A stretch of DNA of 12,204 nucleotides from Planctomycetota bacterium. Lineage in GTDB: Bacteria; Planctomycetota; UBA1135. The notes beneath the pieces are model-generated. The model made no database searches. It worked only from the letters and a program-made list of their open reading frames with translations, and had not been told where the DNA came from. A program made the position numbers and the translations under genes. Below are positions 2,993-11,756 of the stretch, one piece after another (position 1 is the first letter of the stretch; each line of letters opens with the position of its first letter). The stretch lies in NCBI GenBank assembly GCA_029243845.1, contig JAQWRF010000100.1, positions 1 through 12,204 on the forward strand, given 5' to 3'.

Positions 2993-4675
2993 ATGACATC
3001 ACTTAAGTTCACTGAGCTGGGGCTTCCAGCTGCAATGGTCGATTCTTTAGAAAGCTTTGGCTACGAAAGCCCATCGCCTATTCAAGCTGAAGCAATTCCG
3101 TATTTACTCGAGAAGCGCGACATTATTGGTCAGGCGCAAACCGGCACGGGTAAAACCGCTGCGTTTGCTTTGCCTATTTTGACGAATATAGATTTAGCCA
3201 ATCGCGTGCCGCAAGTCTTGGTGCTGGCGCCAACTCGCGAATTAGCTATTCAGGTAGCGGAGTCCTTTCAGAAGTATGCGCGCTCGCTGCCGGGATTCCA
3301 TGTATTGCCAATTTATGGTGGCCAAGCTTACCAGCACCAGTTGCGTCCACTAAAGAAGGGAGTCCACGTTGTCGTGGGTACTCCAGGTCGTGTGCTTGAT
3401 CACATTAAACGCGGCACTCTTAAGCTCGACCAGCTAACTACTTTGGTTCTTGACGAGGCCGACGAAATGCTGCGCATGGGCTTCATCGATGATGTTAATT
3501 TCGTTCTTGAAAACTGTCCTGACAAACGCCAGATTGCTTTGTTCTCAGCTACTATGCCGCGAGAGATTAAGAAGATAGCTGATAAGTATCTCAATTCTCC
3601 AGCTGAAGTAAAAATTAGGGTAAGGCAAGCGACCGCTGACACTATTAACCAGCGTTACCAGATTGTGACCGGGCGCAAAAAAATTGACGCGCTTGCTCGT
3701 CTGTTAGAGTTCGAAGAAGTTGATGCAATGATTGTGTTCGTGCGCACTAAAAATGCCACCACCATCACCGCAGAACAACTCGAAGCGCGTGGATATTCTG
3801 CAGCTGCCCTAAATGGTGATATTCCGCAGGGACAACGCGAGCAAATCATTAAGCGCCTCAAAGGCGGAGGGATCGATATTATTGTCGCTACCGATGTAGC
3901 GGCTCGTGGCCTTGACGTAACTCGCGTTAGCCACGTTATCAATTACGATGCGCCAACTGACCCAGAATCTTATGTCCATCGCATCGGGCGTACTGGTCGC
4001 GCTGGTGCTGCTGGTGAAGCAATCTTGTTTGTTACACCACGCGAGAAACGTTTGCTACGCATGCTCGAGAAGGTGACTGGGGCAGACATCAAGCCCATGA
4101 AAATGCCTACTACTGATGAAATCAACGAGCAACGTATCGAGCGTTTTAAGGATGAAATTTCTGCGGCCATCGAAGACGACAAGCTCGAATTCAACTTGCG
4201 CCTGATTGATAGCTACTTGACTGACCATCCTGAAACTGAAGCTGTTAATGTTGCTGCGGCGTTGGCATTCATCGCACAAGGCAAAAAGCCGCTGCTAATC
4301 TCCAGGAATGAGATGGTTCGCGACGAAGACTTCTCTGCTGACCGCAACCAACGCGAACCACGCGACAGCCGCGGGCGCGGGCGCGAGGATCGCGGCCCTC
4401 GCCGTGACAAGCGTAGTGGCAAAGTTGAAAAGTCAACCGAGGCTGGCATGGAACGTTTCCGAATTGAAATCGGGCATCGTGACCAAGTGCGGCCTGGCTC
4501 TATTGTCGCGGTTATTGCCAAAACTTCTGGCCTGCAGGGCAAGCATATCGGCCGTATTGAAATTTATGACAATTTCGCAACAGTTGATTTGCCTATTGGC
4601 ATGCCGGGTGATGTCTTAGACGACCTGTCGCATGTTAAAATAAATAACAGGTCTTTAAAGATGTCTCGCCTCTAA
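2993..4675 (+). CDS. deaD: ATP-dependent DEAD-box RNA helicase, DeaD/CsdA type
   Basis: A 560-residue RNA helicase of the type that unwinds structured RNA during cold adaptation, ribosome assembly and mRNA decay. All core motifs are intact: Q motif (FGYESPSPIQ, 22-31), motif I AQTGTGKT (48-55), Ia PTRELA (80-85), Ib TPGR (130-133), II DEAD (154-157), III SAT (185-187), IV IVFVRTKNA, V ATDVAARGLD (299-308), VI HRIGRTGR (329-336). An Arg/Asp-rich linker (about 449-477, with RGRGRED) leads to a DbpA-type RNA-binding domain (about 487-557, with QGKHIGRIEIYDNFATVDLP). It is shorter than E. coli DeaD (629 residues) because it stops right after that domain and lacks the long RG-rich tail. It begins only 14 bases after bioA and has no Shine-Dalgarno sequence, so it is probably in the biotin transcript or driven from inside bioA. 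Confidence 0.95.
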   Translation: MTSLKFTELGLPAAMVDSLESFGYESPSPIQAEAIPYLLEKRDIIGQAQTGTGKTAAFALPILTNIDLANRVPQVLVLAPTRELAIQVAESFQKYARSLPGFHVLPIYGGQAYQHQLRPLKKGVHVVVGTPGRVLDHIKRGTLKLDQLTTLVLDEADEMLRMGFIDDVNFVLENCPDKRQIALFSATMPREIKKIADKYLNSPAEVKIRVRQATADTINQRYQIVTGRKKIDALARLLEFEEVDAMIVFVRTKNATTITAEQLEARGYSAAALNGDIPQGQREQIIKRLKGGGIDIIVATDVAARGLDVTRVSHVINYDAPTDPESYVHRIGRTGRAGAAGEAILFVTPREKRLLRMLEKVTGADIKPMKMPTTDEINEQRIERFKDEISAAIEDDKLEFNLRLIDSYLTDHPETEAVNVAAALAFIAQGKKPLLISRNEMVRDEDFSADRNQREPRDSRGRGREDRGPRRDKRSGKVEKSTEAGMERFRIEIGHRDQVRPGSIVAVIAKTSGLQGKHIGRIEIYDNFATVDLPIGMPGDVLDDLSHVKINNRSLKMSRL

Positions 4676-8886: not shown

Positions 8887-11181
8887 ATGTTCGCCTTCCC
8901 CTCCAAACTGCGTAGATTAGCCCTTTCCGCTGTAGCCACCCTATTTCTCGCGACGCAGAGCTTTGCGACTTGGTCGATTATTGTGGTAAATACCAAGACC
9001 CAAGAAATAATCGTCGCCTCTGCTACCTGCGTAGAAGCCATTAATCTACGCGCCGTATTAACCATGTTAGAGGCACAGGCCGGCGGTGGGTGCGCGCAAT
9101 CCATAGGCGCCACCATTATTATGCGTCAAGACGCAACCGAAATGTTTGCCATGGGTGTACCGCCGGAAGAAATACTGCTAGCCCTATCGGCTTACGACAA
9201 CTTGCATGAACTGCGTCAATATGGCTTCGTCGATATGGCTGGCCGCGCCGCCACCTTTACCGGAGCGCAATGTGGCGATTGGGCTGGCGGCCTCACGGGC
9301 ACCAGTGGCGATTTGGTTTACGCGATTCAAGGAAACGTATTAACAGGTCAGCCCGTTATAGATGCAGCAGAGCAAGCATTGATAAGCACGCCTGGCGACA
9401 TGGCTCAGCGCGTCATGGCTGCCATGGAAGCTGCACGCGACATGGGTGGCGACGGGCGCTGTTCATGCAATAACACTTTCCCAACATCGTGCGGATCTCC
9501 TCCAGCAACATTTACTAAAAGCGCGCACGTTGGCTTCCTTATTTCAGCGCGACCCGGAGACCATCCTTACTGCGATAACTTTGCTTGCGCTAAAGGTGAT
9601 TTATATTTTGCGATAAACAAGGCTAGCCTAACTGCCGCCGACCCAGACCCTGTCGACGAGATGCGTATTAAGTTTGATTCGCTACGCCTAGCTTTAATAG
9701 GACGTCCCGACGCTTACCTTTCATCGGTTCATTCCTATACTAATAATGTTAGTGCCGGCTCAATTTCTCCAGTTTCATTTGTCTTAGACTTATCAGATGT
9801 TGATGGGAACATGCTGACGGCCGGTGGCGCCACTATCACCCTAGACCACGCTGCCCGTTCTGCCGGACTCGGCACATTGCATCAAGTCACCGATCACAAT
9901 GACGGCACATACACCGTCGAAGTAATGCCCGGTGCAGTAACAGGCGTTGACGAATTACTGTTCACCATTGATGACGGGATACGCCCGGTAACTTTATGGC
10001 CGCCAACGACATTGGCTCATGAACAACCGCTAGCTCCACTTCGAGGACAGCAATCACTTCCTGGACTACAAAACATCAATGTTACTTTTGCTCGATTGAG
10101 CGAAGACGGACTCACTGCTTACGTAGTTGGCGATGGCGGCACTGGCCTCAAGTTTATTCAACTAGCGCGACCGGATTGGCAAAGCGGCTTCACTGTTTCC
10201 GCAACTCCAGCAATCAGCAATTTCCCTTTGGCTAACCTCAAATCATTTTGGATTAGCCCGGACGGATTAAGAATGACACTCTCCGCGCAACGACCGAACG
10301 GGGTTGACGTTGATTTATTTTCAACATCACGTCTCACTACCAATGATGATTTTATTCAGCCTATTGTCGACCTCGACCTCAACTCCAATGATGCAGCAGG
10401 CGGGCCATTTTTAAGCGCTAATGAATTAGAAATTTGGTTTCATAGCACTCGAGGCAGCGGCTCGTCTTTGTGGCATGCTACTCGACTATCTACAGAATCG
10501 CGTTGGTACCCGCCAAAAAGATATTCCCCACTAAATAGCTCAGACGACACGGCGTATCCTATGTTTGCTAACCATGGCAGTGAATTCATCTTTTCGCAAC
10601 GCTTGCCTTCAGCATCAGGGGTTAGCCTCCGCCATGCCGGAATTGGGGATGATGGGCGCGTGGGCAACCACCAATTGTTGGCGGGGGTTTATGCCAACAG
10701 AAATGCGCCGCGCATCCCAATTAACGTGATTGTTGATCCCGCTACGGGAGCTAGAGCTTTATGCATTTTAAGTAATAGCCAGCTGTCGCAATCGGTGCTA
10801 GAAGACAACGCGCTCGCCGTATCGACAAATGAGATTTCTCTCGCTGCTGGCGGAACGTTTAGTTTTCAGATTTCGGCCGGCTCTAGTTTTTCTGCCGCGG
10901 CTTACAACCTATTCCCTGGAGATTCCCGGTCTAGTAGCGCCGACTTAGGCGTGTTACCGATTAGCTTCAACCGGCACTACTCTAACTCTATGCGCTCGCA
11001 ATTGACCAACGCAAGTGGAGCGCTTTCTGCCACTGGGCAAGCAACATGCTCATGGGTGGTTTCTCCTGGAGCGAGCCTGCCGCCGCAATTAGTAAATTAC
11101 GAAATCGGATTTTGCGCAGTTGCCAAGAACAGCGCCAGCAGTTTTATAAGTAATGCCGTACGCGTTAAGATTTTACCTTAA
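8887..11181 (+). CDS. Secreted multidomain protein with N-terminal DUF1028 (Ntn-hydrolase-like) domain
   Basis: A 764-residue exported protein. Signal peptide 1-27 (basic SKLRR, hydrophobic LALSAVATLFLA, cleavage SFA|T). Residues 28 to about 270 resemble DUF1028: ATWSIIVVN at the start, VPPEEILLALSAYD, QYGFVDMAGRAATFTG, DWAGGLTG, YAIQGNVLTG, and a MAAMEAARDMGGDGR block. Predicted cleavage leaves Thr28 as the new N-terminus, the position of the candidate Ntn nucleophile. Eight cysteines lie in this part (48, 69, 129, 192, 194, 202, 229, 234), compatible with disulfides outside the cytoplasm. About 283-370 is an Ig-like beta region with HNDGTYTVEV. About 385-590 has repeats such as SPDGLRMTLSAQRPNGVD and SANELEIWFHSTRGSG, like TolB/PD40 propeller blades. 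The last 120 residues (SLAAGGTFSFQISAG to SNAVRVKILP) resemble a C-terminal module I associate with planctomycete secreted proteins. The enzymatic role is unknown. It converges on the GST gene with a 17-base overlap. Confidence 0.8.
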   Translation: MFAFPSKLRRLALSAVATLFLATQSFATWSIIVVNTKTQEIIVASATCVEAINLRAVLTMLEAQAGGGCAQSIGATIIMRQDATEMFAMGVPPEEILLALSAYDNLHELRQYGFVDMAGRAATFTGAQCGDWAGGLTGTSGDLVYAIQGNVLTGQPVIDAAEQALISTPGDMAQRVMAAMEAARDMGGDGRCSCNNTFPTSCGSPPATFTKSAHVGFLISARPGDHPYCDNFACAKGDLYFAINKASLTAADPDPVDEMRIKFDSLRLALIGRPDAYLSSVHSYTNNVSAGSISPVSFVLDLSDVDGNMLTAGGATITLDHAARSAGLGTLHQVTDHNDGTYTVEVMPGAVTGVDELLFTIDDGIRPVTLWPPTTLAHEQPLAPLRGQQSLPGLQNINVTFARLSEDGLTAYVVGDGGTGLKFIQLARPDWQSGFTVSATPAISNFPLANLKSFWISPDGLRMTLSAQRPNGVDVDLFSTSRLTTNDDFIQPIVDLDLNSNDAAGGPFLSANELEIWFHSTRGSGSSLWHATRLSTESRWYPPKRYSPLNSSDDTAYPMFANHGSEFIFSQRLPSASGVSLRHAGIGDDGRVGNHQLLAGVYANRNAPRIPINVIVDPATGARALCILSNSQLSQSVLEDNALAVSTNEISLAAGGTFSFQISAGSSFSAAAYNLFPGDSRSSSADLGVLPISFNRHYSNSMRSQLTNASGALSATGQATCSWVVSPGASLPPQLVNYEIGFCAVAKNSASSFISNAVRVKILP

Positions 11182-11731
11182 CCATTATTGCAACGAAAGC
11201 CTCGCTGGCTAAAAAACGCTGCAGCCAATCATGTAGCCCTGGCCATGGCTGTTGATCAAACCAGTCGATGTCGGCGATGCGAAACTGCCTTACAAATGGT
11301 GCGAGGCATAACTCGGCGACCCCCGACTTACCGTCGAAGAGGTATGCCTTGTTTTCAAGCAAGGTGTTTAAGCGCAATAAAAACACGCTGCCTTGCGAGC
11401 GGTGCTCGAGTTCATTAGCGCCGGGATAACGCGTGGCGTATTTATAACGATCGAGGTGATGTTTAAAATCACCATCGCAATCTGCTATTAAACTTTGCTC
11501 TTCATCGCTAATGGGCAAGCACCATTTAACAATATCGAAACTTTCATCAATCACCGTGCCGTCGTCAAGAACTAATACCGGAACAGTCGCCTTTGGCGAT
11601 ACGGCGTAAAGTTCCGGAGGGCGATTGCGCAACTCAATTTCTTGCACAGAAACTTCTATGCCAGCAAAGCGCAACGCCAACCTGGCGCGCATCGCATAAG
11701 GTCAGCGGCGAAAAGAGAATAGTTTATGCAT
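11165..11731 (-). CDS. Glutathione S-transferase family protein, probable selenoprotein (in-frame TGA at the catalytic Cys position)
   Basis: Read from the ATG at 11731 with one TGA decoded, this gives 188 residues: thioredoxin-like domain first (MHKLFSFRR-Sec10-PYAMRARLALRFAGI, then SPKATVPVLVLDDG with the cis-Pro, then IDESFDIVKW with the Glu-Ser that binds the gamma-glutamyl group), then an all-helical C-terminal domain (FKHHLDRYKYATRYPGA, FLLRLNTLLE). Relatives in gammaproteobacteria read FRRCPYAMRARLAL, so the TGA replaces the active-site Cys. Starting instead at the internal ATG (11692) would delete the first beta strand and the active site, which is unlikely for a frame conserved to its end. 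GGTGA, two bases before ATG 11731, is the only Shine-Dalgarno-like site in the window; ATG 11740 is an alternative start. The transporter gene ends 25 bases upstream, so the two are probably cotranscribed. Alternatives are a nonsense mutation or a base-call error. Confidence 0.78.
11671..11690 (-). promoter_or_regulatory. Candidate bacterial SECIS hairpin in the GST mRNA
   Basis: On the mRNA sense, bases 12-31 after the TGA fold as a stem-loop: inner GCCA pairs with UGGC around a GGU apical loop (11682-11680), extended by C-G and a G-U pair, then, past a bulged U, by two more G-C pairs. An alternative outer stem is GCGC/GCGC with a GUU bulge. The apical loop begins with G, 20 bases after the UGA. 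This agrees with what I recall of the bacterial SECIS pattern (short apical loop, G in its first two positions, about 16-37 bases from UGA). The CAGGU around the loop also resembles that of the E. coli fdhF SECIS. Confidence 0.6.
11702..11704 (-). other. In-frame TGA, probable selenocysteine codon
   Basis: This TGA is flanked on both sides by codons for a conserved GST active-site segment (FRR before, PYAMRARLAL after) with no frameshift. The expected amino acid here is Cys, whose codons TGC and TGT differ from TGA by one base. The transporter just upstream ends at TGA (11759-11757), so TGA is not generally read as sense. Confidence 0.7.
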
Positions 11732-11756
11732 CTTCACCATAGTCTATATTAACATC

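Follow-up and report, generated by a model that had tools for sequence, protein, structure and literature searches.

The window, that is the whole stretch of 12,204 nucleotides analysed here, carries on its minus strand a gene that in all probability (roughly 0.95) encodes a glutathione-dependent oxidoreductase of the glutathione S-transferase (GST) fold, in which selenocysteine (Sec), inserted by SelB under the guidance of a hairpin, would replace the catalytic cysteine, as judged from sequence comparisons and genome content. The reading frame, MVKMHKLFSFRR-TGA-PYAMRARLAL, can be followed from either ATG 11740 or ATG 11731 to a TAA at 11167-11165 and contains an in-frame TGA at 11704-11702, corresponding to codon 13 when counting from ATG 11740. 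The initial annotation had placed the TGA, both ATG codons and the junction FRR-TGA-PYAMRARLAL exactly where they were found here. The open reading frame identified automatically begins 3' of the TGA, at ATG 11692 (4 codons behind it), and comprises 175 aa. The following features were assigned to the locus:

11165-11731, minus strand: Sec-GST coding sequence with the TGA inside, likely start ATG 11731, stop TAA 11167-11165
11732-11740, minus strand: extension given by a possible upstream start, ATG 11740, without match in the two sister genes
11702-11704, minus strand: in-frame TGA, putative Sec codon, at the Cys site of relatives and, in the structural model, where helix 1 begins
11165-11692, minus strand: 175-aa open reading frame from ordinary gene calling, without strand 1 and the active site
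11664-11695, minus strand: bacterial SECIS-like hairpin of putative function, apical loop GGU at 11680-11682

The window belongs to genome G000, and both other genomes of the same genus that were examined, G110 and G111, harbour the gene as well. ATG 11731 is likely the GST start, since the resulting N-terminus, MHKLFSFRR, is also found in the G110 and G111 genes and in a relative with Cys at the site (P0005). When read through the TGA the protein consists of 191 aa and scores above the Pfam cut-offs of GST_N_2, GST_N_3, GST_N, GST_C and GST_C_2, showing the thioredoxin-like N-domain and helical C-domain of the GST superfamily (COG0625 type).

A gene for an EamA-type transporter is located upstream of the GST gene in the window and, judged by eye, also in the two sister genomes G110 and G111, and on the other side a DUF1028-like gene is present also in G111, while the contig of G110 ends there. 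In the window the DUF1028 gene is convergent with the GST gene and the two share 17 bases at their 3' ends (11165-11181). Elsewhere in the window, positions 1-1713 of the plus strand contain BioF-like and BioD-like sequences in one open reading frame (by eye), and a bioA-like gene comes next (1713-2978).

An AlphaFold2 model, calculated with Cys replacing Sec, shows a GST fold with high confidence (pLDDT 94.2), in which residue 13 is situated immediately before the helix spanning residues 14-25, where Cys-type GSTs carry their catalytic residue. Among solved structures, GSTs of various classes and SspA come closest, the 50 structures listed being 13-24% identical to the protein. During translation, SelB-GTP carrying Sec-tRNA(Sec) and guided by the hairpin behind the UGA would put Sec at residue 13 instead of allowing termination, and the Sec would thereby come to lie where helix 1 of the thioredoxin-like domain begins. 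The site reads U-P-Y-A and holds no second Cys, and from this lone Sec without a CxxC motif a monothiol-style mechanism is proposed, in which Sec may attack a disulfide, a peroxide or an electrophile and glutathione may resolve the selenenyl intermediate. For the predicted chemistry, a glutathione-resolved selenol most naturally suggests that the enzyme would either transfer thiols or reduce a peroxide or dehydroascorbate.

To place the TGA among relatives, 100 loci were aligned, comprising the best 80 of 549 from the genome contigs, 17 found in a scan of 154 genomes belonging to the order, and a further 3 obtained from 392 genomes sampled across the phylum; some represent the same locus twice, leaving 95 distinct 60-mers. 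At the site 97 loci have a Cys codon (TGC in 71, TGT in 26) and three have TGA, these being the genes of the three genus members, where it occupies the identical codon. Seen by genome set, the order gave 17 GST matches with TGA in the three genus members and in none of the other 14, and the phylum gave 9 matches with TGA only in the window's own. The TGA is thus more than a chance event, as it recurs in both other genomes of the genus at a site where related loci have Cys, and the earlier proposal that it sits at the active-site Cys position holds. The three proteins are 60-66% identical and their frames are open apart from the TGA; the random disruptions in close relatives that would have spoken against the proposal were not found within the genus.

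Among the 120 protein matches listed, out of 7999, Cys is found at the site in 113, while the remaining seven sequences begin behind it. Five of these (P0002, P0004, P0007, P0008 and P0009) begin at the ATG behind the site, just as TGA genes do when called automatically, confirming the suspicion that ordinary gene calling truncates the enzyme, and P0003 begins six residues past that ATG. The cluster of P0002 represents 104 member sequences in the public protein set. The seventh sequence, the GST P0106, which is 55% identical and belongs to another clade, likewise begins at the ATG behind the site, with MRARLAL, and is possibly a second Sec-GST lineage.

Genome G000 (1.80 Mb in 391 contigs, 84.8% complete) was found to contain SelB (293.6 bits, cut-off 242.25), SelD (194 bits, cut-off 125, the gene being cut by a contig end) and a tRNA-Sec (74.7 bits, cut-off 47) with the anticodon TCA according to ARAGORN. 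A search for selA gave no match in this 84.8% complete assembly, so that of the four genes selA, selB, selC and selD which the initial annotation had proposed to look for in the same genome all except selA were recovered. In both sister species selA scores above the cut-off, split over two contigs in either case, and among the 26 genomes of the family the corresponding numbers are 22 for selA and 23 for SelB; its absence from G000 is best explained by assembly incompleteness. The tRNA-Sec is present in G110, and no match was obtained in G111 (about 83% complete) at an E-value of 1e-9. In another genome a selA frame with one in-frame TAG was observed (G095:C24:2485-3792). The Cys homologues, the conserved TGA, the SelB, SelD and tRNA-Sec genes and the selA of the sister species together support the original interpretation of the TGA as a probable Sec codon.

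Searching the three genus genomes for AhpC/TSA proteins resulted in 23 matches, five of them with TGA. In-frame TGA codons were found in an AhpC-like peroxiredoxin with the motif FVUPSEL (L148, G000:C314:11979-12377, and L147, G110:C46), in a BCP-like peroxiredoxin with ATPGUTKES (L153, G000:C266:3373-3735) and in a TlpA/thioredoxin-like protein with FWUGPC (L152, G111:C134, and L154, G110:C168), the last without a TGA-containing match in G000, perhaps due to incompleteness. The TGAs in FVUPSEL, PGUTKES and FWUGPC presumably occupy the usual Cys sites of these proteins (in FVUPSEL the peroxidatic Cys), and the protein names are likewise assigned from the motifs. Together with the GST gene, the two peroxiredoxin genes give G000 at least three candidate selenoprotein genes. 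None of three carboxymuconolactone decarboxylase matches contained a TGA. Among the ten genes of the window, one, the neighbouring EamA gene, stops at TGA and nine stop at TAA or TAG, and since TGA terminates the gene next door the recoding would be site-specific.

When analysing the region behind the TGA a putative hairpin appeared, formed by the run CGC GCC AGG TTG GCG, with a GGU loop that begins 20 bases behind the UGA. The GGU loop and a 6-bp core stem are found in all three Sec genes, while among 92 distinct Cys-type regions a GGU-loop hairpin with a stem of at least 3 bp was seen in one. Of 50,000 synonymous recodings 800 (1.6%) contained a structure of this type, defined as a stem of at least 6 bp and a loop of 3-6 bases with GG at the same distance, a definition framed after seeing the sequence. 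The hairpin makes use of AGG, a rare Arg codon (11 of 225 in the window's genes). Over the 12 codons starting from the TGA 33 of 36 bases are identical in the three genes, which is the maximum for the gene, tied with the 12 codons beginning one codon earlier. Synonymous identity is seen in 7 of 10 codons behind the TGA compared with 22 of 78 in the rest (p = 0.013 in a third-position test, for a codon range picked after looking at the sequence) and with 3 of 8 before it. Folding a stretch of 58 bases around the TGA gave an unremarkable energy (z 0.19), and the energies of the Sec genes fall inside the range of the Cys genes; for this reason the argument for the hairpin draws on its position, its loop and the conserved codons. 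An Rfam search of the window at gathering thresholds gave no matches. The one Cys-type region with such a GGU-loop hairpin, behind its Cys codon, belongs to an Acaryochloris MAG (L045, GST match 4001-4585), where the hairpin might be either a remnant SECIS or a chance structure.

Four other explanations of the TGA were tested and all were rejected. A nonsense mutation in a decaying pseudogene would agree with the missing selA in G000, but it is hard to reconcile with the same TGA in three species whose proteins are 60-66% identical and whose frames are otherwise open. In addition, the eight codons 5' of the TGA differ in 4, 4 and 5 codons between the three genus pairs, every difference being synonymous, a constancy of residues not expected of a frame that stops at the TGA. 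The NG86 estimates among the three genes (dN 0.26-0.32, and dS 1.53 in the sole pair given a value) likewise argue against decay, and we regard the pseudogene as extremely improbable. Equally improbable is that an assembly or sequencing error made the TGA from TGC or TGT; G000 is a fragmented assembly, but the TGA occurs in three separate genomes, and the start at the downstream ATG is shared by the five public proteins named above, including the one whose cluster has 104 members.

Reassignment of TGA throughout the genome to an ordinary residue, e.g. Trp or Gly, would also account for a TGA that is read through, but the EamA gene next door stops at this codon, the TGAs coincide with the Cys position in the GST and, judging by motifs, presumably also in two peroxiredoxins, and SelB and tRNA-Sec are present in G000, so that this explanation too can be given next to no weight. 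Slightly less remote, though still very unlikely, is that the 175-aa protein starting at ATG 11692 is the real product. This is where the automatic frame and the five public proteins begin, and the ATG lies a mere four codons behind the TGA; against this, such a product would, according to the model, be without strand 1 and the catalytic residue, the residues before the TGA are kept, and the upstream start is common to the sister genes.

In a phylogenetic tree the Sec forms and the truncated forms fall in a clade of 11 sequences (support 100/100) that includes two Cys forms. One of these, P0006, is sister to the G111 gene and P0008 (support 100/97) and shares 74% identity with the Sec form of G111, and the other, P0005, groups with the G110 gene and P0009 (support 100/99) and shares 89% identity with the G110 Sec form. 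The clade's deeper forks have lower support (80/60 to 90/85). The tree requires three state changes, with six truncated sequences scored as Sec from their start position alone, and likewise when counting only the Sec genes verified in DNA; two truncated sequences, P0002 and P0008, each share 97% identity with a verified Sec gene. Constraining all Sec and truncated sequences to one clade was rejected (AU test, p 5e-46, for a group named after the first tree). Cys relatives placed among Sec forms suggest repeated switching between Sec and Cys. One gain followed by two losses and three separate gains have equal parsimony cost, at three changes each, and a single gain is favoured by the hairpin that the Sec genes have in common. 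For one early gain of Sec with two or more subsequent reversions to Cys (P0005 and P0006), in a lineage still decoding Sec, we consider the odds to be even. If true, repeated switching would offer a natural set of enzymes in which to test the benefit that Sec brings to a GST.

In the public proteins searched, this enzyme is present in truncated form with the active site missing and would hence go unrecognised as a redox enzyme. The family, listed in reviews from sequence alone, now has a well-supported Sec-GST with a genomic setting consisting of Sec machinery, sister species and close Cys relatives, and the close pairs of Sec and Cys GSTs permit a direct comparison of both residues in one enzyme.

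When comparing the protein with known systems, its fold resembles the group of omega-class GST, thiol-dependent reductase, glutaredoxin 2 and SspA, and weak sequence similarity was found to thiol-dependent reductase 1 (1.7e-9) and omega GST (7e-7). Omega GST and glutaredoxin 2 use an N-terminal catalytic Cys. None of the six NCBIfam models matched reaches its curated cut-off, examples being glutaredoxin 2 (42.4 bits, cut-off 133), maleylacetoacetate isomerase (40.1 bits, cut-off 171.05) and SspA (25.2 bits, cut-off 314). Closer relatives are the Cys-type GSTs belonging to its own subfamily (e.g. P0005, P0006, P0010; Parvularcula, Maricaulis, Pseudomonas), with 48-66% identity among the 113 listed matches that have Cys. 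Those aligned share the same site, (F/Y)SFRR-C-PYAMR, but differ in having TGC or TGT and, in most cases, an extended C-terminus plus an insertion around residue 82.

Selenoproteins of the GST type have been described from marine metagenomes, as the initial annotation correctly noted. According to the available excerpts of these reports, GST was a selenoprotein family represented by 4 sequences among those of the Sargasso Sea in 2005 (Zhang et al., PMC1088965), and the GOS survey of 2008 contained 12 Sec-GST sequences from 8 samples against 1,036 Cys homologues (PMC2398784). Reviews from 2022 and 2026 list GST selenoproteins, in the excerpts without giving a Sec motif (PMC9312934, PMC13188914), the latter describing the functions of such families as largely uncharacterised. 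A GST engineered with Sec in E. coli is cited in excerpts of PMC10778597, and selenoprotein genes have been reported in other planctomycetes (PMC4807772), the main text of which does not mention glutathione S-transferase. Judged by titles and the beginnings of abstracts, no paper on a planctomycete Sec-GST was found among those listed on selenoproteins of planctomycetes or of the GST type. While the window gene has a host among the Planctomycetota, the excerpts name no host for the published sequences. Like the published GST-like selenoproteins (COG0625), which come from aquatic metagenomes, it combines a GST domain with one Sec and no listed UxxC, a likeness to the family of Zhang et al. seen in family names, domains and counts. 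Moreover, PF13409, given for Sec-GST in the excerpted 2026 review (PMC13188914), is the best Pfam match of the window protein. Overall, the window gene very probably encodes a genuine Sec-GST, as yet uncharacterised but belonging to a family already in print.
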